DNA of 41,512 bases from Clostridia bacterium (GTDB lineage: Bacteria > Bacillota > Clostridia > Oscillospirales > CAG-272): contig JAFVXI010000002.1 in NCBI GenBank assembly GCA_017501245.1, forward strand, positions 1 to 41,512, given 5' to 3'. This document shows positions 3,224 to 41,146 of the stretch, one piece after another. Positions within the stretch are counted from its first letter, which is position 1. Each line of letters starts with the position of its first letter. Below the pieces are notes generated by a model. The model was given only the letters and a program-made list of their open reading frames with translations, did no database searches and was not told where the DNA came from. The translations under genes and the position numbers were made by a program.

Positions 3224-5398
3224 ATGAAACTTATCAAGAGAAACGGCTCCGAAGTTATCTTTGACAAGGCTAAGATAGCTGCCGCCGTAACCAAGGCAAA
3301 TCTCGCCATAGACGAGAAGGAAAGAATCAGCGAAGAGGATATAATAAACGTAACCAACGCAGTCGAGAAGATATGCAAGAAGATGCATCGCTCGGTAGGC
3401 GTCGAGGAGGTCCAGGATCTCGTAGAGGACGAGATCATGAAGCTCGGTGCCTTCGTGCTCGCTAAGGCGTATATCACCTATCGCTATAAGAGAGAGCTTG
3501 TCCGCCGCTCTAACACCACCGATGAAAAGATCATCTCGCTCATCGAGTGCAACAACGAGGAGGTCAAGCAGGAAAACGCTAATAAGAACCCCACCGTAAA
3601 CTCCGTCCAGCGTGACTATATGGCAGGCGAGGTGTCCAAGGATATCACCCGCCGCATCCTCCTCCCCGAGGAGATCGTAAAGGCGCACGACGAGGGCATC
3701 ATCCATTTCCACGATGCCGACTATTTCGCTCAGCATATGCACAACTGCGATCTCGTCAACCTCGAGGACATGCTCCAGAACGGCACCGTCATCAGCGGCA
3801 CCATGATCGAGAAGCCCCATAGCTTCTCCACCGCCTGCAATATCGCAACGCAGATCATAGCTCAGGTCGCATCCAACCAGTATGGCGGTCAGTCCATCAG
3901 CTTGACTCACCTTGCCCCCTTCGTCGACGTCAGCCGTCAGAAGCTGCGTGCCACCGTCACCGAGGAGCTTGCCTCCGTTGGCGTGACCGATGAGGAGGCA
4001 ATCAAGTCCCTCACCGAAAAGAGGCTCCGCGAGGAGATCCGCAAGGGCGTTCAGTGCATTCAGTATCAGGTTGTGACCCTCCTCACCACCAACGGTCAGG
4101 CTCCCTTCATCACCGTCTTTATGTACCTCGGAGAGGCAAAGAACGAGCAGGAGAAGGCAGACCTCGCCGTCATCATCGAGGAGACCCTCCTCCAGAGATA
4201 TCAGGGCGTCAAGAACGAGTCCGGCGTCTGGATCACCCCCGCCTTCCCCAAGCTCATCTACGTCCTCGAGGAGGACAACATCCATCCCGACTCCCCCTAC
4301 TACTACCTCACCGAGCTTTCCGCTAAATGTACGGCAAAGCGCATGGTTCCCGACTACATCTCCGAAAAGGTCATGCTCAAGAACAAGGTGGACAAAAACG
4401 GCGACGGCCAGTGCTACACCTGTATGGGCTGCCGCTCCTTCCTCACTCCTTACGTCGACGAGGACGGAAAGCCTAAGTATTACGGCCGCTTCAATCAGGG
4501 CGTCGTAACCGTAAACCTCGCAGACATCGGACTCTCCGCAGGCGGCTCTATGGACAAGTTCTGGGAGGTGTTTGAGGAGCGTATGGAGCTCTGCCACAGG
4601 GCTCTGCAGTGTCGCCACGAGCGCCTGACGGGAACTCTCTCGGATGCCGCACCCATCCTCTGGCAGCACGGCGCACTCACCAGGCTCCCCAAGGGTGAGC
4701 CCATCGACAAGTATCTCCACGGCGGCTATTCCACCCTCTCGCTCGGCTATGCAGGCCTCTGGGAGTGTGTATACGCCTTAAACGGCAAAAAGCTCACCGA
4801 GCCCGAGGGCGAGGAGCTTGGCCTCGAGATAATGAAAAAGCTCAACGAGTACACCGCAAAGTGGAAGAAGGCGGAAAACATCGACTACTCCCTCTACGGA
4901 ACTCCCCTTGAGTCCACCACCTACAAGTTCGCTAAATGCCTGCAGAACCGCTTCGGCATCGTCAAGGGCGTCTCCGACAGGAATTATATCACCAACTCCT
5001 ACCACGTCCACGTAACCGAGGAGATCGACGCCTTCGCAAAGCTTGCCCTCGAGGCAAAGTTCCAGGCCCTCTCTCCCGGCGGCGCTATCTCCTACGTTGA
5101 GGTCCCCGACATGCAGAACAACATTGAGGCAGTCCTCGGCGTTATGCAGTTCATCTACGACAACATTATGTACGCCGAGCTGAACACCAAGAGCGACTTC
5201 TGCCAGCAGTGCGGCTACGACGGCGAAATAGAGATAGTAGAGGATTCCGACGGCAAGCTCGTCTGGGAATGCCCCAACTGCAAAAACAGAGATCAGTCCA
5301 AAATGAACGTAGCCAGAAGAACCTGCGGCTACATCGGTACTCAGTACTGGAATCAGGGAAGGACTGAGGAGATCAAGGACCGTGTACTTCATCTTTGA
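3224..5398 (+). CDS. nrdD: anaerobic ribonucleoside-triphosphate reductase (class III)
   Basis: Reduces ribonucleoside triphosphates to deoxyribonucleotides under anaerobic conditions using a glycyl radical. The 724-residue protein begins with an ATP-cone (about residues 1-95, starting MKLIKRNGSEVIFDKAKI), followed by the large catalytic barrel. The C-terminus has the zinc site C660-x2-C663 and C683-x2-C686, then RTCGYIG with the radical glycine at about 702. The start at 3224 is supported by AAGGAG eight bases upstream; an upstream in-frame ATG at 3182 has no such site. Codon use is strongly biased to C-ending codons, as expected for high expression. The activase gene nrdG normally adjoins nrdD but is absent here, so activation must come from elsewhere. 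Regulation by NrdR is visible in the promoter. Confidence 0.97.
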   Translation: MKLIKRNGSEVIFDKAKIAAAVTKANLAIDEKERISEEDIINVTNAVEKICKKMHRSVGVEEVQDLVEDEIMKLGAFVLAKAYITYRYKRELVRRSNTTDEKIISLIECNNEEVKQENANKNPTVNSVQRDYMAGEVSKDITRRILLPEEIVKAHDEGIIHFHDADYFAQHMHNCDLVNLEDMLQNGTVISGTMIEKPHSFSTACNIATQIIAQVASNQYGGQSISLTHLAPFVDVSRQKLRATVTEELASVGVTDEEAIKSLTEKRLREEIRKGVQCIQYQVVTLLTTNGQAPFITVFMYLGEAKNEQEKADLAVIIEETLLQRYQGVKNESGVWITPAFPKLIYVLEEDNIHPDSPYYYLTELSAKCTAKRMVPDYISEKVMLKNKVDKNGDGQCYTCMGCRSFLTPYVDEDGKPKYYGRFNQGVVTVNLADIGLSAGGSMDKFWEVFEERMELCHRALQCRHERLTGTLSDAAPILWQHGALTRLPKGEPIDKYLHGGYSTLSLGYAGLWECVYALNGKKLTEPEGEELGLEIMKKLNEYTAKWKKAENIDYSLYGTPLESTTYKFAKCLQNRFGIVKGVSDRNYITNSYHVHVTEEIDAFAKLALEAKFQALSPGGAISYVEVPDMQNNIEAVLGVMQFIYDNIMYAELNTKSDFCQQCGYDGEIEIVEDSDGKLVWECPNCKNRDQSKMNVARRTCGYIGTQYWNQGRTEEIKDRVLHL

Positions 5399-5400
5399 TC

Positions 5401-5780
5401 GGTAAATTTTGCGCATATGGTGTGTGACCGTCACCTCTCGCCGTAGGTCACTTTGATCGGTAAATTTTGCGCACATTGTGTGATCGTCACCTCTCGCCGT
5501 AGGTCACTACGGCTTCGGGCTCCGATCCCGCAATCTGCATCAAAATTTCCTCGATCAAACTAACCTTGTTACTTCTGTAAATTTGCGCACATCGTGTGAC
5601 CGACACATCTCGCAGTAGCTTTCCACAGCTTCGGGCTCCGATCCCGCAATCTGCATCAAAATTTCCTCGATCAAACTAACCTTGTTACTTCGGTAAATTT
5701 GCGCACATTGTGTGATCGTCACCTCTTGCAGTAGCCTTCCACGGCTTCGGGCTCCGATCCCGCAATCTGCATCAAAATAA
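5401..5780. repeat. 116-bp tandem repeat after nrdD
   Basis: Copies begin at 5401 (58-bp partial), 5459 (117 bp), 5576 (116 bp) and 5692 (about 89 bp, partial). Each opens with GGTAAATTT(T)GCGCA and contains GTGTGA-CGTCACCTC, then CTTCGGGCTCCGATCCCGCA and ATCTGCATCAAAAT. The first copy starts three bases after the nrdD stop codon, and the preceding bases CTTTGATC are duplicated before the second copy. No reading frame runs through all copies, and the full copies differ by only a few substitutions, suggesting recent amplification. The transcript would carry it in the 3' UTR before the terminator. Confidence 0.85.
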
Positions 5781-5873: not shown

Positions 5874-7319
5874 TCAAGCCCTTGCCGGCTCCTTTTCCTT
5901 CTCCTTCTCCTCGCCTGCTTCCTTTTTCAGCTGCTTTTCAAGCCTTATGAAGGCGATAACGCAGAGGATGCCGATAAAGAGGGCGGTTGCGCCCCAGGAG
6001 ATGGGATACATATACGCCAGCTGCTTAAACTCGGGGATGCCCCTCTCGGGCAGGTTGAAGAAGTAGCCGTAGATCCAGACCAGCCTTGCGCCGACGGTGC
6101 CGAGGAGATTGAGGATGAGCGGCAGGATGGAGTAGCCGAGGCCTCGCACGACACCGGTCGCGGCGTTCAGCATGCCTGCTAAGAAGTGAGTAGAGAGCAT
6201 AACGCTGCACCAAGCCTCGACGGCGAGGATCTTCTGCTCTATGTTGGGGTCGCTCGCCTCGATAAACAGCGTTGCTATCTCTCCGGAGAATATGCGTAGC
6301 ATATTTGCGACGAAGCCGACAATTACGAAGGACTGAATGAGCGAGTAGAGGAATATCCTCTTGATGCGGTCCGGGCGCTTGGCTCCGAAGTTTTGTCCCG
6401 TGGCGCTGAGCGTTGCGGGGAGGAAGGCTCCCGCGATGGCGGAGGAGAAGTGGTCGATGTCGGTGCCTATCGAGCGTGCGGAGATAAACACCGTACCCTC
6501 AAAGGAGTTGATGGCGGCGGTGCTGGCGAGGTTTGCCAGCGAGAAGCAGGAGGACTGCACGCCCGTCGGGATGCCAAGCCTGAGCATACGGAGTATAAGC
6601 CCCCTGTGCGGTATCAGCTTCTTGAAGGAGAAGGCGTAGCTCTCGCCCTTTCTGCGGTATAGCTCGTAGACGACGGCAAATGCGGAATAGTACTTGGAGA
6701 TTACCGTAGCAATAGCAACGCCCTCAACCGACATTCCGCACACGATGACGAAGAAGAGGTTTAGTACGACGTTGATAACTCCGGATATCATACCTATCGT
6801 CAAGGACGTGGTGGAGTCGCCGATAGCACGCAAGACAGCCGTGCCGACGTTATATATCGCCGTTGCAAAAATGCTCGTGTAAAGTATCCTGAGGTAAAGG
6901 AGTGCGGAGTCAAACAGCTCCTCCTTCGTGTCGAGCAGCTCAAGCAGCGGGACAGCCGTCGCATATGCGATAACCGTCATAACGGCGGAAAGCAAGAAGC
7001 TTAAGATAAATGCGTTGTGCGTCGATCTTGAAACCTCGTCGCTCCTCTTGGCGCCGAACGCCTGAGCGACCACGACGCCCGCACCTGCGCCGACGCCTAT
7101 CATAAAGTTTATTACAAGACCCGAGATAAAGGTGGTCGAGCCTATTGCGCCGAGTGCGTTCGGGTCGCCCGAAAACTGACCGACAACCATCTTGTCAGCC
7201 GTGTCGTATAGAACCTGCAAGAGGTTTGTCAAAACTATCGGCAGCATAAAGAGCAGCAGCCGCCAGAAGATGGGACCCTCTGTAAAGTCTATCTTTCTTC
7301 TTTTGAAGACGTTAAGCAA
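5874..7319 (-). CDS. MATE-family efflux transporter (1 of 4)
   Basis: A 481-residue polytopic protein with the twelve-helix MATE (NorM/DinF) architecture, exchanging Na+ or H+ for cationic compounds or lipid-linked substrates. The N-terminus has the conserved TEGPIFWRLL segment, then LLQVLYDTADKMVVGQFSGD and GAGAGVVVAQAFGAKR in the first lobe; the second lobe repeats GTDIDHFSSAIAGAF and GQNFGAKRPDRI. The start is a TTG at 7317-7319, preceded by AAGGAG eight bases upstream. The C-terminus is a charged Lys/Glu tail. It is the last of four tandem paralogues and ends next to the nrdD terminator. The substrate is unknown. Confidence 0.93.
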   Translation of the reverse strand: MLNVFKRRKIDFTEGPIFWRLLLFMLPIVLTNLLQVLYDTADKMVVGQFSGDPNALGAIGSTTFISGLVINFMIGVGAGAGVVVAQAFGAKRSDEVSRSTHNAFILSFLLSAVMTVIAYATAVPLLELLDTKEELFDSALLYLRILYTSIFATAIYNVGTAVLRAIGDSTTSLTIGMISGVINVVLNLFFVIVCGMSVEGVAIATVISKYYSAFAVVYELYRRKGESYAFSFKKLIPHRGLILRMLRLGIPTGVQSSCFSLANLASTAAINSFEGTVFISARSIGTDIDHFSSAIAGAFLPATLSATGQNFGAKRPDRIKRIFLYSLIQSFVIVGFVANMLRIFSGEIATLFIEASDPNIEQKILAVEAWCSVMLSTHFLAGMLNAATGVVRGLGYSILPLILNLLGTVGARLVWIYGYFFNLPERGIPEFKQLAYMYPISWGATALFIGILCVIAFIRLEKQLKKEAGEEKEKEKEPARA

Positions 7320-7417
7320 TTCCTTATCTCCTTGTAGGTTTTTCGTTTATGCGGTGTTTTTTTACTTTTGCGTTTTTTTCTTGACGTAGCCCCTACGTGC
7401 TTGCGGTGGCCCTGCCG

Positions 7418-8857
7418 TCAGGCTTTCTGCGGGGGTCTTTCTGCGCTTGCTCCCGAGGCTGCACTCTCCTTCGCCTTTATCTCGCTCTCAAGCTTTGCGA
7501 GGCGGCGGAACGCCACCACCGTGATTATAGCAAGAAGCAGCGCCGACGAAGCCCAGGAAACGGGGTAGAGCAGAGCCAGACCCGAGAAGGTGTGGAAGGG
7601 CTCGAGAGGGAAAATTAAGAACACCCATACAGACCTCGTCACGCAGGTGCCGACAATGTTTAATATCAGCGGAGCCATAGAGTAGCCGAGGCCTCTGACC
7701 GTGCCGAGCACGGCGTTCATAGCGCCTTGGAGGAAGTAGGTTGCGAGCATTATGCCCGTCCATTCCGAGACGGCGGCGATAATGGTGTCGTAGCCGGGGG
7801 TCGACGCCTCAACGAAGATCGAGGCGATCTCCGCACGGAAGAAGCGGAGGGTGTGTGCGACGATAAGCATTATCGACATCGACTGTATCAGGGAGTAGTA
7901 GAACACCTTTTTGATCCTGTCGGGCTTCATAGCTCCGAGGTTCTGCCCCGACGCCGTCATGGCAGACTGACAGAATGAGCCTGCGATAACGTCGAGCATA
8001 CCGTCGATATTACCCGACACCGAATGCGCGGTGACATACTCGGGCGGGAAGGTATTGACGGCGGAGGTGGTTATCATATTCGTTATGGAAAAGCAGGTTG
8101 ACTGCAAGCCCGTCGGCACGCCGATGCGCAGTATGCGCAGAAGAAAGCGCCTGTCACATCTGAGCTTCTTGAACGAGAATGCGTAGCACTCGCCACGCCT
8201 CTTAGCAAGGATGGCTATTGCAGCCGCCGCAGAAAAATACTGCGAGATGACCGTCGCAAGCGCAACGCCGTCGACCGACATATGGAAGGCGATAACGAAG
8301 AAGACGTTTAATACGACGTTCATAATTCCTGCGACGGAGCCGATAACGAGCGGCGAGCGTGAGTCGCCGACTGCCCTGAGTATGGAGGCCGAAACGTTAT
8401 ATAACGAGGTCGCCAGGATGCCGGAATAGGTCATGCGCAGATAGAGTAAGGCTCCGTCCATAAAGGCGTCCTGCGTGCCGAGCAGATGGAGCAGGGGCTC
8501 CGCCGTGGTGTATGCCACGACGCTCATTATCACGCTGATGCCGACCGACATTATAAGCGAGGTATGCACGGCGCGTGAGGTCTCGTTTTCTCTTTTCGCA
8601 CCGTAGAGCTGGGCGACTATAACGCCCGCACCCGAGCCGAGGCCTGCCATAAAGTTGATGATCAGACCCGAGATGAAGGTGGTCGAGCCTATTGCGCCGA
8701 GGGCGTTCGGATCACCGGAGAACTGACCGACGACGATCTTATCCGCCGCATTGTAGAGCATCTGGAGTATGCCCGTCGCCATAATAGGCAGGGCAAACAG
8801 TATCAGCCGCCAGAAGAGCGGCCCCTCGGTAAAGGATATCCTTTGTTTAGCCTTCAT
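7418..8857 (-). CDS. MATE-family efflux transporter (2 of 4)
   Basis: A 479-residue, twelve-helix MATE protein. It has the same opening (FTEGPLFWRLILFALPIM) and the LYNAADKIVVGQFSGDPNAL motif, with ASGQNLGAMKPDRI in the second lobe. It is closest in appearance to the neighbouring copy at 5874 (both carry GSTTFISGLIINFM-like text), suggesting a local duplication. The ATG at 8857 has AGAGGTG upstream. It has its own promoter, and just upstream of the -35 is the operator-like element shared with the MFS/AraC intergenic region, so this copy is the one most likely under AraC-type control. The substrate is unknown. Confidence 0.93.
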   Translation of the reverse strand: MKAKQRISFTEGPLFWRLILFALPIMATGILQMLYNAADKIVVGQFSGDPNALGAIGSTTFISGLIINFMAGLGSGAGVIVAQLYGAKRENETSRAVHTSLIMSVGISVIMSVVAYTTAEPLLHLLGTQDAFMDGALLYLRMTYSGILATSLYNVSASILRAVGDSRSPLVIGSVAGIMNVVLNVFFVIAFHMSVDGVALATVISQYFSAAAAIAILAKRRGECYAFSFKKLRCDRRFLLRILRIGVPTGLQSTCFSITNMITTSAVNTFPPEYVTAHSVSGNIDGMLDVIAGSFCQSAMTASGQNLGAMKPDRIKKVFYYSLIQSMSIMLIVAHTLRFFRAEIASIFVEASTPGYDTIIAAVSEWTGIMLATYFLQGAMNAVLGTVRGLGYSMAPLILNIVGTCVTRSVWVFLIFPLEPFHTFSGLALLYPVSWASSALLLAIITVVAFRRLAKLESEIKAKESAASGASAERPPQKA

Positions 8858-8881
8858 AATTCACACCTCTGTGCTGATGCC

Positions 8882-8910
8882 ATTGTAGCATCAAGGCACG
8901 TGAAAGTAAA
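8882..8910 (-). promoter_or_regulatory. promoter of MATE gene 2
   Basis: On the minus strand TTTACT (8905-8910), a 17-base spacer and TACAAT (8882-8887). The -35 is poor and overlaps the shared operator-like element, the arrangement expected of an activator-dependent promoter. Confidence 0.65.
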
Positions 8911-8945
8911 TGGAAATAATATGTCGGTATGGAAAAAAACGAACA
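8906..8945 (-). promoter_or_regulatory. operator-like element, copy A
   Basis: About 40 bases here match 23881-23920 with only six or so differences, although the surrounding DNA is unrelated. On the minus strand it holds an exact direct repeat TTTCCAT with starts 19 bases apart (about two helical turns), as in bipartite AraC-family sites, and ends in TTTAC that forms the -35 of MATE gene 2. The regulator is inferred to be the AraC protein at 24020. Confidence 0.6.
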
Positions 8946-9084
8946 GTCGTGCGCACCACCTATGGGCGGGATGGGCTTATCTCTTTCCGCATCCACACGG
9001 CTTTGGAGCCTCGTACGGTGAGAGGAGCGAGCACGTCGTCGAAGGTCACTTGAGCCTCCGTCTTTGCCTGCGAGCCATCAGCCG

Positions 9085-10494
9085 TCATTCGGAGAGCACT
9101 TGTGCCTCATGGCTTACCGTCTCGCCAAGCCGTGAGACGCGCCTGTAAGCGGGCACTACCAAAAGCAGCATAAGCAGGCTCGTCAGCGCCCAGGAGATGG
9201 GGAAGCAGACGATCAGGGATTCAAGCTCGTGGGGTAAATTTGGGAACACGAGTGTCACCCAGATTATCCTCGTTAAGCAGATGCCGACGAGCGACACTAT
9301 CATTGGCAGGGCGGAGTAGCCGAGCCCGCGGAGGAAGCCCGATAGCACCTCTGAGATGCCGCAAAGCACGTAAAGGAAGATGATAAAGCCGACCCAGCGC
9401 ACCGCCGCAGCGACGACCTCGCCGTAAAGGGGGTCGGAGCCGTCGATAAAGAGCTTGACGATAGGCTCTCTCAGGATATAGCACAGCGTGCTGACCGAGA
9501 GACCGACTACGGAGACCTGAATAAGCGAATAAAACAGCGATTTCTTGACTCTTTTCGTTTTTCCCGCACCCCAGTTCTGCCCTGTGAAGGTCATGCCCGC
9601 CTGCATAAAGCAGTTCATACAGACGTAGACGAGACCGTCTATCGACGAGGCAACGGCGTTTGCCGAGATGACGGGGCGGGGGAAGGTGTTTACGCCGCCG
9701 ACAACGACCATATTTGCGACGTTATAAGCCGCAGACTGAAGCCCCGCGGGGATGCCGAGGGCGAGCATACGAAGGAGTATTCCGCGCTCGATGGTGAGCT
9801 TCTTTATATCCAAGGAGAAGCATTCTCCCTTAGCTCTCATCATCACGATGACGACGGCCGCAGCCGATGCGTACTGCGAGATTATCGTAGCGAGCGCAAC
9901 GCCGACTATCGATAGGTGAAAGAGAATGACGAAAAGGAGGTTTAAAGCCACGTTTAAAAGCCCCGAGAGCGAGAGGATATACAGCGGCGTCTTCGAGTCG
10001 CCGGTCGAGCGCAGGATGCTTGCGCCGAAGTTGTATACCGACGTTGCGGGGATTCCGAACGAGATCACGAGGACGTAGGCTGCCGCCTTATCAAGGAGGC
10101 TCGCCTCTGTGACGAGTAGGGAGAGGGCAGGGCGGTGGACGGCGAGGGCGATCAGCATAAACAAAACACCGCCGATAATCGACGTCAGCATCGCCGTGTG
10201 CGTCACCCTCGACACGTCTCTATGCCTGCCTGCGCCGTAGTGTTGAGCCACGATAACGCCCGCACCAGAGGAAACGCCGATCAGAAGGTTTATAAACAGG
10301 TTTGTCAATGCGCCCGTGCAGCCGACTGCCGCCAGCGCCTCGGGGTCGCCCGAGAACTGACCGACGACGATGTTGTCCGCCGAGTTGTAGAGTATCTGCA
10401 AGACGCTCGTCGCCAGAATCGGCAGAGCGAAGAATATCATTTTAAAGAAGAGCGAGCCCTCGGTGAAGCTCTTTTTTTCATTTAAGGCGGTCAT
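9085..10494 (-). CDS. MATE-family efflux transporter (3 of 4)
   Basis: A 469-residue MATE protein. The ATG at 10494 is chosen because it places FTEGSLFFKMIFFALPIL at the same distance from the N-terminus as in its neighbours; a TTG-initiated extension to 10551 is open but adds a non-conserved tail. It shows LYNSADNIVVGQFSGDPEAL and, in the second lobe, FTGQNWGAGKTKRV. It has an N in NSADNIV where copies 1 and 2 have K, and pairs with copy 4 on this and other features, so the cluster looks like two pairs. It follows copy 4 after 92 bases and may be co-transcribed with it. Confidence 0.92.
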   Translation of the reverse strand: MTALNEKKSFTEGSLFFKMIFFALPILATSVLQILYNSADNIVVGQFSGDPEALAAVGCTGALTNLFINLLIGVSSGAGVIVAQHYGAGRHRDVSRVTHTAMLTSIIGGVLFMLIALAVHRPALSLLVTEASLLDKAAAYVLVISFGIPATSVYNFGASILRSTGDSKTPLYILSLSGLLNVALNLLFVILFHLSIVGVALATIISQYASAAAVVIVMMRAKGECFSLDIKKLTIERGILLRMLALGIPAGLQSAAYNVANMVVVGGVNTFPRPVISANAVASSIDGLVYVCMNCFMQAGMTFTGQNWGAGKTKRVKKSLFYSLIQVSVVGLSVSTLCYILREPIVKLFIDGSDPLYGEVVAAAVRWVGFIIFLYVLCGISEVLSGFLRGLGYSALPMIVSLVGICLTRIIWVTLVFPNLPHELESLIVCFPISWALTSLLMLLLVVPAYRRVSRLGETVSHEAQVLSE

Positions 10495-10586
10495 ATGCCG
10501 GTCTGCCTTTCTCGCCTCGGCGGCGTTTTGAAAAAAGAGCCCAAGACACAACCCGTAAGGGGGCTGTGCCTTAAGCTCGATGGATC

Positions 10587-11996
10587 TTATTCAGCTTTTA
10601 TAAGCTCGGCCTGCGCCTCTCCCTCGGCAAAGAGCTTTTTCAAGCGCCTCGCCTCGAAGAGGATCAGAACGACGTTGCATAAGACGGTCGCAATCCACGT
10701 GATGGGGTAGGAGACGTTCAGCCAGGCGATGCTCTCGGGATTCATAGGGAAGAAAACGAATATCCACACGATCCTGACGATAAGCACGCAGGAGACGGCG
10801 GTTATCATCGGGCCGGTCGAGTTTCCGACACCTCTGAGGAAGCCTGCGAGAACGCTCATAACTCCGCAAAGGAAGTACCAGTTCAGTATAGAGTTCATAA
10901 CGACTATCGCCTGCTCGATGACCTTAGCTCGGTTGACTACGTCGCTTCCGACGAAAAGCGAGGCGATAGGCTCGGCAAACAGCAGCTCAAGCTGCGCAAC
11001 GCCGATGCCAACGATAAGCACCTGGATGGTGGAATACCACAACACCTTCCAGACTCTTTCCTTCTTCATCGCTCCGTAGTTCTGTCCCGCAAAGGTCATG
11101 ACCGAGGAGGTGAAGCTGTTCATACAGGTGTAGGTTATGCCGTCTAGGTTCGAGGCGATGGTGTTGCCCGAGATGGTCTCGACGGGGAAGGTCGAAACGG
11201 CTGAGGTGAGCAGCATATTAGAAAGCGAGAAGATAGAGGACTGAATGCTTGCGGGCACGCCGCAAACGAGTATGCGTGAGAGCATACCTCTGTCGAGCAT
11301 CAGTTTTTTTGGGGAATATCTCGTGGAGTCGTCGCTCTGTCTCATCATAAGGAAGATGACGGCTGCGGCAGACGCATACTGCGAGGTCACCGTAGCGAGC
11401 GCAACGCCTGCGACGGACATATGGAAAACGATGACGAAAACGAGGTTTAACAGTACGTTAAGCAGGCCGGAGAGCGCAAGGATAACGAGCGGCGTTTTCG
11501 AGTCGCCGAGCGAGCGCACTATCGAAGAGCCGAAGTTGTAGACCGACATAGCGGGGTAGCCTGCCGCAATTATAAGCATATAGAGCGTGGACTTGTCGAG
11601 CAGCTCGGGCTTAACGATCAAGGAAAGCACGGGGCGCAGGACGACCAGCCCCACGACGAAAAGTCCGACACCGACGATAAAGGACAGCGTCATCGCCGTA
11701 TGTATACATCTTGACAGCTCACGCTTCTGCCCCGCTCCGAAGAGCTGAGCGACCACGACGCCCGCACCTGCCGAAAGGCCTATAAAAAGGTTTACCATAA
11801 AGGCGTTGGTGCTGGAGGTCTGACCGACCGCCGCAAGCGCCTGCTCGTCGCCCGAGAACTGACCGACGACGACGTTATCCGCCATGTTATATAAAACCTG
11901 CAAAAGGCCGGTCAATATGATCGGCAAAGTAAAGGCAAACAGCCTCCAGAATATCGGGCCCTCGGTAAAGTTGGGTCTTCCTTTTCTAACAACCAT
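10587..11996 (-). CDS. MATE-family efflux transporter (4 of 4)
   Basis: A 469-residue MATE protein beginning MVVRKGRPNFTEGPIFWRLF. The start at 11996 is supported by GAGGT six bases upstream; the frame is open for 23 further codons without a ribosome binding site. It carries LYNMADNVVVGQFSGDEQAL in the first lobe and FAGQNYGAMKKERV in the second. As the first gene of the minus-strand series it has a strong TTGACA/TATAAT promoter whose spacer contains a run of eight C (plus strand). The substrate is unknown. Confidence 0.93.
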   Translation of the reverse strand: MVVRKGRPNFTEGPIFWRLFAFTLPIILTGLLQVLYNMADNVVVGQFSGDEQALAAVGQTSSTNAFMVNLFIGLSAGAGVVVAQLFGAGQKRELSRCIHTAMTLSFIVGVGLFVVGLVVLRPVLSLIVKPELLDKSTLYMLIIAAGYPAMSVYNFGSSIVRSLGDSKTPLVILALSGLLNVLLNLVFVIVFHMSVAGVALATVTSQYASAAAVIFLMMRQSDDSTRYSPKKLMLDRGMLSRILVCGVPASIQSSIFSLSNMLLTSAVSTFPVETISGNTIASNLDGITYTCMNSFTSSVMTFAGQNYGAMKKERVWKVLWYSTIQVLIVGIGVAQLELLFAEPIASLFVGSDVVNRAKVIEQAIVVMNSILNWYFLCGVMSVLAGFLRGVGNSTGPMITAVSCVLIVRIVWIFVFFPMNPESIAWLNVSYPITWIATVLCNVVLILFEARRLKKLFAEGEAQAELIKAE

Positions 11997-12128
11997 TGTC
12001 TGAACCTCAAAAAATCGGGGCGGGATGGGGAAGAGTGGCGTGGATATGCGCCCGATCTCCCTCAAAAAGGATCGAGCCAGCAGCGCTGTCGGAGTGCGAT
12101 AGCGAGGCGTCGGATCCTCGTCGGATGG

Positions 12129-12182
12129 CAGGGCTTTCAGCCCTGTCTAATCATTATAGCCCCACCCCCCCCGATTTGTCAA
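12129..12182 (-). promoter_or_regulatory. promoter and leader hairpin of MATE gene 4
   Basis: On the minus strand TTGACA (12177-12182), an 18-base spacer and TATAAT (12153-12158). The spacer is almost pure G on that strand: the plus strand reads C4, A, then C8. A 7-bp hairpin CAGGGCT/AGCCCTG with a 3-nt loop lies at 12129-12145, at the start of the transcript. Loss of one base in the C run would give the ideal 17-base spacer. Confidence 0.75.
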
Positions 12183-12225
12183 GTAAAAAAGGCAATAAAT
12201 ATTTAGGATAACGAGAGAAGTGTGT

Positions 12226-12275
12226 ACACGGCAGAGCCGTGATGAGATATAGAGGCGGCTGAGGCTGATGAGAGG
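12226..12275. repeat. short hairpin array, GATGAGATA linker
   Basis: CACGGC/GCCGTG with an AGA loop is followed by GATGAGATATA and a second GGC-rich unit ending GATGAGAGG. The same stem and linker recur at 41203-41221 at the other end of the window. Confidence 0.5.
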
Positions 12276-12304
12276 TTGACAAGTCGATTAGAATAGGATA
12301 TAAT
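12276..12304 (+). promoter_or_regulatory. promoter of the dus operon
   Basis: Perfect TTGACA (12276-12281), 17-base spacer and TATAAT (12299-12304), about 33 bases before the dus start codon. Confidence 0.85.
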
Positions 12305-18598: not shown

Positions 18599-18692
18599 CG
18601 AAGGAATACGAGAAAAGAAAAAAGTCGGCACAGACGGTCCGGGGTAATGCGCTTATTCTGATCGGTAGCCGAGGGGCGCCCGCAGGGATAAA

Positions 18693-18746
18693 ATAAAAGC
18701 TATCCGCCGAGCCGATAAGATAAAAGCTATCCGCCGAGCCGACAAA
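18693..18746. repeat. 27-bp direct repeat, two copies
   Basis: Two adjacent 27-base copies share ATAAAAGCTATCCGCCGAGC and differ only near the 3' end. They lie between the phosphodiesterase and its probable terminator, in non-coding DNA. Confidence 0.75.
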
Positions 18747-18755
18747 ACGAAAAGA

Positions 18756-18791
18756 GGCACTCGTGGCAAAATGGCCATAAGTGCCTTTTTT
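18756..18791 (+). terminator. terminator of the aldolase operon
   Basis: Two-part stem GGCACT/AGTGCC and TGGC/GCCA with a small internal bulge, followed by T6. It is about 160 bases after the last gene. Confidence 0.8.
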
Positions 18792-18868
18792 ATATGGAGT
18801 AGAAAAACGACGTATACGCCAAGCCGCACTCAGCGATCGCCGCAGCAAGCGAGGATAGTCAAGCGAGG

Positions 18869-18952
18869 GCATTGGTTGTCAAGCCGCAAGCATTGGTTGT
18901 CGAGCCGCAAGCATTGGTTGTCGAGCCGCAAGCATTGGTTGTCAAGCTTGAG
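18869..18952. repeat. 21-bp tandem repeat, four copies
   Basis: Four consecutive copies of GCATTGGTTGTC(A/G)AGCCGCAA start at 18869, 18890, 18911 and 18932; the last diverges at its end. The period is a multiple of three, and in one frame it would read KHWLSSR repeated. However, the only start codon is inside the preceding terminator and lacks a ribosome site, so I treat it as non-coding. Confidence 0.85.
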
Positions 18953-22508: not shown

Positions 22509-23825
22509 TCATATCGCCGCAGGCGATGCATCGTTTATTGCTGTCTCGGCTTCCTTTGCTTCCTCGGCGGCGAGGATAACGGCTCTGTCACGGTTGGCAG
22601 AGCGGAGGACGAACTGCATCGTCACGGTTACGAACACCATCATTACCGCAAAGACGATGAAGGGGACGTTGTAGTCGCCGAAGGTGTCATAGCAGAGGTT
22701 TGCAAAGGGGGAGCCGATGGCAAAGCCCGCCGTGCTTGCGGCGTAGAACAAGCCCACGATCCTGTCAAAGTCCTTGTTTCCGAACAGCTCGCTAGCATAA
22801 AGAGGGAGCATGACCGTTTCGAGCGGGAGAGCAATTGCCGCAAAGATAACTCTGACGAAGGCTATCACCTGTCCTATCGGCGTGTTTGACACGAGGACGA
22901 GAGCAAGGAGGGAGACGAAGGAGCTTGATAGGCAGACGTTCATCGTGATCTTCATTCCGACCTTGTCGTACATAAAGCCGACGAGAAACTTGCTCAAGAG
23001 CAGGCAGAGGCTGCTGACCGTCATAAGCGTCGCAACGAAAGCCTTGTCCATTCCGATGTCGTACATATGCGGAGTAGAGATGCCGCCGAGACCCTGTAAG
23101 GACATTCCCGTCAGCATCATACAGACGAGCGCGAGATAGAAGTAGGGCTTTTTCTTCGCTTTGTCGTATTCCATACCGACCCAGCCCGTGCCGCGCGCCT
23201 TGCGCTTTTTCTTTTCGGAGATGGGCTCGGCCTTCTCGCCCTTGGGCACGTCCTTGAAGAAGATGACGATAAGCAGGAGGACGACGGCAAGGAGAATTGC
23301 GACCAGCCTGTAAGAATTACGGTAGCCGAAGGCATTTCCCTCCTCGAAGATGATGGGCGAGAGGATCTGAACCGACACGGCGCCGCCAAGTCCGTTTGCC
23401 GCAAGGATAGCACCCGTGATGGCGCCCTTATTCTTCTTGCACCACCTGTTGATGACGACGCTGACCATCGTCGTGCCCGTCCAGGAGAGACCTACGCCGA
23501 GCAGTATGCCGGCGATATAAAAGACGATAAGATGCTCTGCGACGGAGTTTAAGATCGCAAAGCCGATAAGGCAGAGAAAGCCTGCGCACATCAGCTTTTT
23601 CGTTCCGAATTTATTGACCAGGCGACCGAAGAAAAGGCTCATCACAGTCGTCGTAACGTAGCGGAAGGTGTCGTTTAAGGAAAAGGCGCTCCTCGGTATG
23701 CCGAGTGCATCGGTTATCGCCGTGAGATACATTGTCCTGCCGCTCGAGCAGAAGCCAAGGCTGATGCAAACCGACAGGAAGCAGAGCGCAATTATCACCC
23801 ATGAGTAGTCAAATCTTTTTTTCAT
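22509..23825 (-). CDS. MFS transporter
   Basis: A 438-residue major facilitator with twelve predicted helices. The loop between helices 2 and 3 carries GRLVNKFGTKKLM, an MFS signature A-type motif, and the second half repeats it as GFMYDKVGMKITM. The central cytoplasmic loop is basic (EKKKRKARGTG). The overall style, with SWTGTTMVSVVINRWCKKNKG in helix 4, resembles the oxalate/formate and monocarboxylate-type groups, but the substrate is not defined. AAAGGAC lies ten bases before the ATG. It is divergent from the AraC gene, with the shared operator-like element between them. Confidence 0.92.
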   Translation of the reverse strand: MKKRFDYSWVIIALCFLSVCISLGFCSSGRTMYLTAITDALGIPRSAFSLNDTFRYVTTTVMSLFFGRLVNKFGTKKLMCAGFLCLIGFAILNSVAEHLIVFYIAGILLGVGLSWTGTTMVSVVINRWCKKNKGAITGAILAANGLGGAVSVQILSPIIFEEGNAFGYRNSYRLVAILLAVVLLLIVIFFKDVPKGEKAEPISEKKKRKARGTGWVGMEYDKAKKKPYFYLALVCMMLTGMSLQGLGGISTPHMYDIGMDKAFVATLMTVSSLCLLLSKFLVGFMYDKVGMKITMNVCLSSSFVSLLALVLVSNTPIGQVIAFVRVIFAAIALPLETVMLPLYASELFGNKDFDRIVGLFYAASTAGFAIGSPFANLCYDTFGDYNVPFIVFAVMMVFVTVTMQFVLRSANRDRAVILAAEEAKEAETAINDASPAAI

Positions 23826-23855: not shown

Positions 23856-23885
23856 ATTATAATCCCGAGCGCATATATATGTAAA
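23856..23885 (-). promoter_or_regulatory. promoter of the MFS transporter
   Basis: On the minus strand TTTACA (23880-23885), an 18-base spacer and TATAAT (23856-23861). The -35 lies at the edge of the shared operator-like element, as in the MATE gene 2 promoter. Confidence 0.65.
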
Positions 23886-23920
23886 TAGAAATAATATAAC
23901 AATATGGAAAAAATCGAACA
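23881..23920 (-). promoter_or_regulatory. operator-like element, copy B
   Basis: Matches 8906-8945 with about six differences over 40 bases. On the minus strand it holds TTTCCAT and TTTCTAT with starts 19 bases apart. It overlaps the MFS -35 on one side and ends four bases before the AraC -35 on the other, so one bound protein could act on both promoters. The inferred ligand is the AraC protein encoded next to it. Confidence 0.65.
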
Positions 23921-23924
23921 CCAC

Positions 23925-23953
23925 TTGAAAATTTCCTGAGCATAGTATATAAT
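23925..23953 (+). promoter_or_regulatory. promoter of the AraC gene at 24020
   Basis: TTGAAA (23925-23930), 17-base spacer and TATAAT (23948-23953), immediately beside the operator-like element. Confidence 0.75.
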
Positions 23954-24019
23954 AGGATCATCTACAAAAATCGGCGATAGCGCCATCAAGTCGGGCGCAA
24001 ATATAGAGAGGTGAGAGGC

Positions 24020-24781
24020 GTGAGAGAATTCAGGGACGACTTAAGGATAATATCATCCTCGAGGCATGCGAGCAAGCCGTATGGAAAAATTCAAAGCAGG
24101 GCGACCCACGGCTTCATCATCAAGCTGGGCGGTGAAGCTGACTATGATTTTTCGGGCGAGCGCATCCACGTGAAAAAGGGCGAGATGATCCTCTTGCCGA
24201 AGGGCTCCTCCTACGAATACCGGACCTGGGGAGAGGACAACCTCTACACGTCGATAAACTTTCTCGGCGAGCTTGATTGCCCCGAGGTGAGGGTCTTTGA
24301 TGTCGAGGGCTTCCATCGGCTCGGCTTTATCTCGGAGAGCTTTTCAGAGCTTTGGCGCTTCGGTGCGGCAGAGGAGAGGTATGAGTGCTTAGCCGCCTTT
24401 TACGATCTCGTCGCCTTCGTCATAAAGCTTGAGGCGGCTGACGGAGCGGAGAAGGGCAGATTTGCTCTTATCGAGCCTGCGGTCGAGTATATGAGAAAGC
24501 ATATTTACGAGTGCTCCTTCCGTGTGGATAAGCTGCACTCTCGCATCGGCATCTCCGACACCTATTTCAGGAGGCTCTTCAAGCAAAGGTTTGGCCGTGC
24601 TCCAAAGGAGTACGTCACCTCGGAGCGGCTCTCGCACGCAAGGTCCATCATCGAGAGCGGCGACTGGGGCTCGATCGCCGAGGTTGCGCTGACGGTCGGC
24701 TATTCCGATCCTCTGTATTTCAGCAAGGCGTTTAAGCGTGCGTTTGGCAAAGCGCCCAGCGACGTCGGCAGAGGTATATAA
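24020..24781 (+). CDS. AraC-family transcriptional regulator
   Basis: A 253-residue regulator. Residues 20-130 form a cupin-type sensor domain (THGFIIKLGGEADYDF, then KKGEMILLPKGSSYEYR), and about 155-253 carry the two HTH motifs of the AraC DNA-binding domain: FRVDKLHSRIGISDTYFRRL and SIAEVALTVGYSDPLYFSKA, ending FKRAFGKAPSDV. The GTG at 24020 is chosen because GAGAGGTG lies six bases upstream; an earlier GTG at 24011 overlaps that site. It is divergent from the MFS transporter and followed closely by a HAD phosphatase. The ligand is probably a sugar or related compound. Confidence 0.93.
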   Translation: MREFRDDLRIISSSRHASKPYGKIQSRATHGFIIKLGGEADYDFSGERIHVKKGEMILLPKGSSYEYRTWGEDNLYTSINFLGELDCPEVRVFDVEGFHRLGFISESFSELWRFGAAEERYECLAAFYDLVAFVIKLEAADGAEKGRFALIEPAVEYMRKHIYECSFRVDKLHSRIGISDTYFRRLFKQRFGRAPKEYVTSERLSHARSIIESGDWGSIAEVALTVGYSDPLYFSKAFKRAFGKAPSDVGRGI

Positions 24782-40405: not shown

Positions 40406-41146
40406 ATGAATGATATAGTTCTTACCTATTACGCCCATCATAGGCGCAAGCCCGGTGCGATGCACCCTGCCAGGCTCTCCTCGCACGAATTGACGATCGT
40501 TATCAAGGGGGAGATGACCTACGTGGTCGATGGAGTGAGGCACACGCTGACCGAAAAGAACGCCGTTTTCATCCCTGCCGAGACAGAGAGGGAGCGCTTG
40601 TCCGACGCCTCGGAATGCGACTACGTCAGCTTTAACTTTTCGGGCAGAGCGCCGAGCCTGCCCACCTTTATCGAAAACGCCTGCCACAGCGAGATGATCC
40701 TGATGATATCGGCGATAGACCGCATAGCCACGAAGCCACAGCTTTCGCTATACGAGCGTGGCGCACAGCTCCTTGCCGCACTCCTCTCCCTCCTCGAGGA
40801 ATACGAGAGGGAGGGCAAGATGACGCCTCTTACCGTCAAGATCCTCAAATATCTGCACCGAAACTATAATAGCCATATCTCGCTCTCGGATATCTCGGAT
40901 GCCTTTTTCTTCTCGGAGGGCTATTGCGAGGCCGTTTTTTCGGCGGATATGGGCAGATCCATCATTGACTACGCCCTTGATCTTCGCATAACCGAGGCAC
41001 AGCGAATGCTCCTCGAGGGCTCGGCGCCTCTCGGATATATTGCCGAGGCTGTCGGCTTCTCCGACTATAACTACTTCTCTCGCACCTTCAAGCGCCGCAC
41101 CGGCTATACCCCAACGGCTTATAGGAGAGAGCGTATGCACGACTGA
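40406..41146 (+). CDS. AraC-family transcriptional regulator
   Basis: A 246-residue regulator with an N-terminal cupin sensor (HELTIVIKGEMTYVVDGVRHT, then EKNAVFIPAETERERL) and a C-terminal AraC DNA-binding domain from about residue 145, with HISLSDISDAFFFSEGYCEA and PLGYIAEAVGFSDYNYFSRT and the closing FKRRTGYTPTAYR. AGGA precedes the ATG by eight bases. It is divergent from the isomerase/oxidoreductase/esterase operon, which it most likely controls in response to the pathway sugar. Confidence 0.93.
   Translation: MNDIVLTYYAHHRRKPGAMHPARLSSHELTIVIKGEMTYVVDGVRHTLTEKNAVFIPAETERERLSDASECDYVSFNFSGRAPSLPTFIENACHSEMILMISAIDRIATKPQLSLYERGAQLLAALLSLLEEYEREGKMTPLTVKILKYLHRNYNSHISLSDISDAFFFSEGYCEAVFSADMGRSIIDYALDLRITEAQRMLLEGSAPLGYIAEAVGFSDYNYFSRTFKRRTGYTPTAYRRERMHD

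Follow-up and report, generated by a model that had tools for sequence, protein, structure and literature searches.

An operator-like element before MATE and MFS transporter genes and its probable AraC-family regulator in a Clostridia genome

AraC, RhaS and XylS are class II activators of the AraC/XylS family, and MarA, SoxS, Rob and RamA bind single sites. For CphR of Rhodococcus, operator repeats are reported at -35 to -49 and -55 to -69 (PMC6205950). A comparable arrangement occurs twice in the window, that is, the whole stretch of 41,512 nucleotides from a Clostridia bacterium (contig JAFVXI010000002.1) analysed here: one copy precedes a MATE transporter gene and the other an MFS gene with a divergent AraC-family gene beside it. 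Judging from the sequence, one AraC regulator very probably controls both transporters.

Two copies of the element and the genes beside them

The features of the locus are collected in Table 1. MATE2 belongs to a cluster of four minus-strand MATE genes (5874-12065, TIGR00797 198-206 bits apiece), which has an anaerobic ribonucleotide reductase gene on one side and a dihydrouridine synthase gene on the other, and the MATE2 product matches solved structures of MATE efflux proteins. MATE1 is possibly the second gene of the MATE2 transcript, because no terminator-like site is listed in the 98-bp gap between the two. The MFS and AraC genes are divergent and copy B lies between them, just as the sequence-only reading that preceded this analysis had placed it next to the AraC gene. 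The open reading frame of the latter spans 24011-24781, with a probable start at 24020, and its N-terminal part matches the sensor domain PF02311 (AraC_binding/cupin) below the cut-off (19.7 bits against 21.1).

Table 1. Genes, copies of the element and predicted promoters in the window
Feature	Position	Strand	Details
MATE1	5874..7319	-	98 bp downstream of MATE2, same strand
MATE2, MATE-family transporter, presumed target	7418..8857	-	TIGR00797 206.4 bits, cut-off 147.4
MATE2 promoter (predicted)	8882..8910	-	-35 TTTACT 8910-8905, 17-bp spacer, -10 TACAAT 8887-8882
Copy A	8906..8945	-	half-sites TTTCCAT 8935-8929 and TTTCCAT 8916-8910, 19 bp apart
MFS transporter, divergent target	22509..23825	-	PF07690 137.8 bits, cut-off 33.4
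MFS promoter (predicted)	23856..23885	-	-35 TTTACA, 18-bp spacer, -10 TATAAT
Copy B	23881..23920	-	half-sites TTTCCAT 23910-23904 and TTTCTAT 23891-23885, 19 bp apart
Probable AraC gene promoter (predicted)	23925..23953	+	TTGAAA-17-TATAAT, 4 bp past copy B
AraC-family regulator, candidate reader of both sites	24020..24781	+	HTH_18 70.1 bits, cut-off 33.6

The best NCBIfam matches of the MFS protein are oxalate/formate, lactate and bile-salt carriers, all of them below cut-off (TIGR00890 105.8 against 374.85, NF049980 114 against 320, NF038246 125.9 against 400 bits); it falls short of the OFA family (TIGR00890) and is classed as MFS only. The nearest solved structure is MCT2 (E 2e-7), and the MFS relatives that adjoin an AraC gene in two other genomes are 83% (G058) and 60% (G075) identical. 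As the resemblance to carboxylate-type carriers stays below all cut-offs, calling this protein an exporter is a guess.

Further features were recorded in the window. A second AraC-family gene (40406-41146), with HTH_18 and a below-cut-off match to Cupin_2, is a weak match to the lineage of the AraC protein at 24020. A tandem array between the anaerobic ribonucleotide reductase gene and MATE1 (5393-5778) has units of 56 bp x 2.0 and 116 bp x 2.8 with 90-93% matches, and short tandem repeats (27 bp x 2.3 and 21 bp x 3.8) occupy 18687-18947. A tRNA was the only match of the Rfam search.

Copies A and B, separated by 15 kb, are identical at 34 of 40 bases, in agreement with the roughly six differences that had been claimed; when copy B was shuffled 300 times with its dinucleotides preserved, the best match to the window averaged 24.4 and reached at most 28 of 40. 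The 45-base flanks of the two copies have no clear similarity, as expected from the claim of unrelated flanking DNA, and the two TTTCCAT-like half-sites described there are indeed present in both, as TTTCCAT followed by TTTCYAT at a distance of 19 bp. Read on the minus strand, both copies consist of TGTTCG, a T-run, TCCATA and a TCYATTTAC block, followed by the -10; in most relatives an A-run takes the position of the T-run of copy A. A pattern of 33 nt drawn from the shared core matches the window exactly twice, at A and B (expected 0.00), and no third copy with up to 3 mismatches was found in the assembly (1,937,592 bases, 37 contigs, 73% complete), the reversed-pattern control giving 0. A looser 28-nt pattern (up to 2 mismatches) was not specific, with 2 matches of 1 mismatch each in G000 vs 3 of the reversed control.

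The promoters in Table 1 are sigma-70-like predictions, and a separate consensus scan gives the same three positions. At both copies the proximal half-site reaches the -35 of a predicted promoter with correct spacing, so the overlap with the -35 of the minus-strand MATE2 and MFS genes was read correctly from the outset. In the MATE2 promoter the first base of the -35 is also the final one of the proximal half-site of copy A, and TG precedes the -10. Autoregulation of the AraC gene is plausible, since its predicted promoter starts only 4 bp past copy B. Between MATE4 and the dihydrouridine synthase gene (12153-12304) there are two perfect sigma-70 consensus promoters (12/12) on opposite strands, which contrast with the regulated-looking promoter of MATE2.

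The element along the AraC lineage

Twenty AraC loci were aligned: the window, G058, G075, the 12 other closest of 77 loci (L047-L058, 37-44% identical) and L124-L128 from a family search, in which 7 of 295 genomes, the own one among them, match at E <= 1e-35 (L123 and L058 are one locus). The sites were initially recognised by visual inspection of the upstream regions, and all 20 loci, the window's own included, carry the element at the same place before the divergent gene. Divergent AraC/MFS pairs with the element occur in G058 of the same genus, where the AraC protein is 58% identical, and in G075, a member of another family, where it is 38% identical. The alignment contains 11 invariant columns, several of them outside the -35 and -10, and yields the consensus TGTTTCAAAAAATCCATATTGTTTTnTTATTTCTATTTACA. 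The half-sites are offset by 17-20 bp, a range that takes in L124, and a -10 that matches at 5 or 6 of its 6 positions stands at promoter spacing in 17 of the 20 loci; it is weaker in L054, L126 and L127, and the elements of the last two deviate most in the set.

One would argue that the 40-mer is nothing but a convergent AT-rich region upstream of promoters, as both copies are AT-rich in a window of 54% GC. However, the limit of 28 of 40 reached by the shuffles and the invariant columns beyond the promoter boxes leave this explanation with next to no credibility. It is just as hard to see in the 40-mer a dispersed repeat or a scar of recombination with no regulatory role, for which the high identity between A and B is the sole argument. 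Both copies hold the same promoter position, and the element is conserved before the same kinds of genes across genera and families while the upstream DNA differs. The dispersed repeat, which the sequence-only reading had itself named as the contrary outcome, was rejected on the copy number of two in the assembly (up to 3 mismatches).

The divergent gene at the 20 loci encodes an MFS protein in 9 cases, a MATE protein in 5 (at L057 recognised only distantly, 21%), an AEC protein in 5 (Pfam PF03547 having been run on 4 of these) and, in the remaining one, a protein with a sub-threshold beta-helix match. In the AraC tree, a quick tree of 57 rows with open forks (L020, L024, L028 and most distant loci were left out), the lineage forms a group of 23 rows (SH-aLRT 98), which also contains L216 and the two further lineage members of G058, L213 and L225. 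Four changes between MFS, MATE and AEC were counted on this tree, their order being left open by the forks, and MATE alone is not clustered on it beyond shuffles (161/500).

In an HTH alignment the 23-row group has one residue more in front of HTH2; no weight is given to it here, as L014, L218 and L032 have similar sites and do not have the residue. In another AraC lineage (L223 in the own genome, L226 in G058) the AraC gene is preceded by GTTNCGAAAAA and then by a different half-site-like sequence, which suggests operators with the GTTNCGAAAAA block in common and with half-sites that differ.

Sites found with a model of the element

Short patterns proved unspecific. The first genus-wide pattern (69 genomes, up to 3 mismatches) gave 10 matches in 8 genomes. 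Two of them are those of the window and one is in G058; the other 7 were taken as chance against 5 in the reversed control, and the one inspected of these, in G103, has no TTTAC. An exact gapped pattern gave 24 matches in 22 of 395 genomes vs 22 in the reversed control, many of them in long open frames without a good -10. Therefore, full-layout sites and then a sequence-only model, R1, were used. R1 was built from the 20 AraC-adjacent sites, while copy A, the MATE2 site of G058 and all non-adjacent sites were left out for testing; the top rank of the AraC-adjacent site in all 21 searched sets (20 genomes; G149 = G492) is a matter of construction. In the own genome copy B scores 33.4 bits, a match to the promoter half only 17.6, and copy A, third in rank, a weak 15.9 (E 0.019).

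The model was run over 394 genomes sampled from the larger order (Infernal, stricter filters, E <= 1e-5) and gave 12 hits in 11 of them. All but one lie between a lineage-type AraC gene (about 31-44% identical, or the window's own) and an MFS (4), MATE (5) or AEC (2) gene. Five of these 11 were new to the model (L271-L275; four MATE, one AEC), and therefore a lineage AraC, a MATE gene and the same operator occur together in several species independently of the window. The twelfth hit (G075 contig 1, 35.5 bits) precedes a secreted-protein-like gene, with no AraC within the 6 kb examined.

The MATE2 site itself has a counterpart in G058. There, a site with 1 mismatch to the looser 28-nt pattern ends 47 bases before a MATE gene that is 75-77% identical to MATE2 and takes the same place in the same four-MATE cluster (pairwise best identities: MATE4 74, MATE3 61, MATE2 75, MATE1 68%), which is on a different contig from the AraC gene. 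The half-sites, T-run and -35 are conserved between the two MATE2 sites; the spacer and the upstream DNA differ. In the 19-kb stretch of G058, R1 (E <= 0.5) finds the site of the MATE2 counterpart alone (15.2 bits), so the restriction of the site to a single one of the four tandem MATE genes extends to a second genome. The control set of R1 comprised 39 loci, namely 30 MATE loci (28 of 69 congeners) and 9 MFS loci (8 of 246 family genomes). Its matches were the window MFS (33.4), the window MATE2 (15.9) and the G058 MATE2 (15.2 bits) sites; two matches of 9-10 bits, at L246 and L241, cover the model only partially and were taken as chance. In 26 further congeners no site was found at the best MATE2 homologue, with an upstream region of 310 bases or more in every case; as these homologues are 39-48% identical, they are not strict orthologues and serve as a control on MATE promoters generally. 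MFS homologues away from a lineage AraC have no site in 6 of 6 testable cases (a seventh locus, L264, has only 39 bases upstream and was not counted), and neither has the MFS paralogue of the own genome.

Similar sites also occur beyond these transporters. Sites that do not adjoin the regulator gene precede MATE2 in two congeners, an AEC gene in G484 (25.2 bits) and the citrate lyase genes citD-citE-citF in G485 (L209 2831-5778, contig 2; 40.7 bits), where CitD and CitF are above and CitE is below the NCBIfam cut-offs; the latter genome also has an AraC-MFS pair. In G486 a 27-bit site lies between a second lineage AraC (L216) and a gene with a Cu_amine_oxidN1 domain. Sites of 26-35 bits adjoin distant AraC genes in G185, G381 and on contig 68 of G485, the last (34.8 bits) at a secreted-protein-like gene; G270 has a 21-bit site at a locus that appears to correspond to the one in G185. 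Of two sites in G161 (21-23 bits), the 23.1-bit one stands before a gene that we take to be tsaE-like. Thus, the expectation that all hits stand before transporters holds for the window but not in every other genome, with citDEF, secreted-protein-like and tsaE-like genes among the neighbours. At the G381 locus (L218 759-3920) the AraC gene, about 30% identical, is transcribed divergently from a gene for a pyruvate-formate-lyase-like glycyl radical enzyme, and the locus has a copy of the operator of 29.3 bits.

Among 91 more distant AraC loci, R1 matches were found just upstream of six other AraC genes (L014 33.6, L032 22.6, L011 20.8, L007 18.9, L008 14.4 and L022 13.7 bits), and L013 has a 23.9-bit match elsewhere in the locus; in the 64 loci L059-L122 of this set the best match reaches 13.2 bits (L092, just upstream of its AraC). 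Therefore, this operator type is common to a wider circle of AraC proteins, and another AraC could read such sites. It could accordingly be proposed that the MATE2 site is read by a different paralogue and that the window AraC acts on the MFS gene only, the more so as the incomplete assembly (73%) contains 16 AraC-like matches (E <= 1e-10). However, the nearest own-genome paralogues, L223 and L224, fall outside the 23-row group and have no R1 match upstream, two other lineage members have the window AraC as their closest match in the own genome, and A and B are the sole places in the assembly within 3 mismatches of the shared pattern. We consider a second reader quite improbable.

The proposed regulon and known systems

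We hold it to be highly probable, from the sequence comparisons above, that A and B are operators of the AraC protein encoded at 24020-24781, which, bound to its ligand as a dimer, most likely activates the MFS gene, MATE2 and perhaps MATE1. The dimer would bind the direct-repeat half-sites TCCAT and TCYAT, whose distance of 19 bp is about two helical turns, and the proximal half-site, running into the -35 box, would place it in a class II position. With its ligand, perhaps an organic acid, it would recruit RNA polymerase to the divergent MFS gene and, at a distance of 15 kb, to MATE2 and perhaps MATE1 as well. The idea of one AraC protein controlling two exporters is therefore kept as to the regulon, given the element at 20 of 20 AraC loci and at MATE2 of G058, and is a guess as to the exporter role of the MFS protein.

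The sign of the control deserves attention. The core promoter at copy B is nearly consensus (11/12, with a good -35 of 5/6), and for this reason repression is a serious alternative: the AraC protein would sit over the -35 and block polymerase until the ligand arrives, giving the same regulon with the opposite sign. Many relatives also have near-consensus core promoters, 12 of 19 tabulated promoters having a -35 of 5/6 (TTTACA), and class II targets of MarA, SoxS and RamA are described as usually having no recognisable -35 (PMC10268841). However, the -35 of copy A and of both G058 promoters has only 4 of 6 matches, and a layout of direct repeats with their end in the -35 is that of AraC/XylS-type activators, as in CphR (PMC6205950). 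Dimer binding and activation are favoured because the repeats, 19 bp apart, resemble such class II sites, which is also the geometry that had been claimed for them. Thus activation appears likelier than repression, which we regard as unlikely.

In this AraC lineage the element stands beside MATE as well as MFS genes. Tentatively, and with considerable doubt, it could be that the operator stays fixed in the lineage and the gene behind it is swapped among the three unrelated transporter superfamilies MFS, MATE and AEC, with non-adjacent sites in addition; the regulator would then sense one class of metabolite, perhaps carboxylates, for which the transporters are interchangeable. The sites before the citrate lyase genes and the AEC gene are a hint of organic acids, and the citDEF site in G485 is a lead to the ligand. 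With the same operator before MFS, MATE and AEC genes, a single ligand would suggest the substrate of transporters labelled only 'multidrug', and uncharacterised MATE proteins would gain a testable physiological substrate. Uncultured gut Clostridia thereby gain an operator of defined sequence with its candidate regulator and two presumed targets. The circuit appears to be undescribed so far; in the literature searched (at abstract level, with few subscription journals) there was no apparent description of the AraC lineage or the motif.

The MFS protein is like the OFA, monocarboxylate and bile-salt carriers over most of its length, and unlike them it scores far below their curated cut-offs. 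The site is like those of MarA, SoxS, Rob and RamA, which act on stress and efflux genes, in that an AraC-type protein has a class II site over the -35 (PMC10268841). It differs in its paired half-sites, in a longer protein with an N-terminal domain and in having two targets in the assembly. The closest likeness is to the AraC/XylS class II activators including CphR, where the regulator is likewise divergent from its target and where, in CphR, two direct-repeat half-sites lie about 20 bp apart with the proximal one overlapping the -35 (PMC6205950). In contrast to these activators, the half-site here is TCCAT/TCYAT and not TGCA-N6-GGNTA, the offset varies between 17 and 20 bp in the set, and the targets, of which one is non-adjacent, are transporters from unrelated superfamilies. 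The mechanism therefore looks ordinary, and a fixed operator with exchangeable transporters looks less so.
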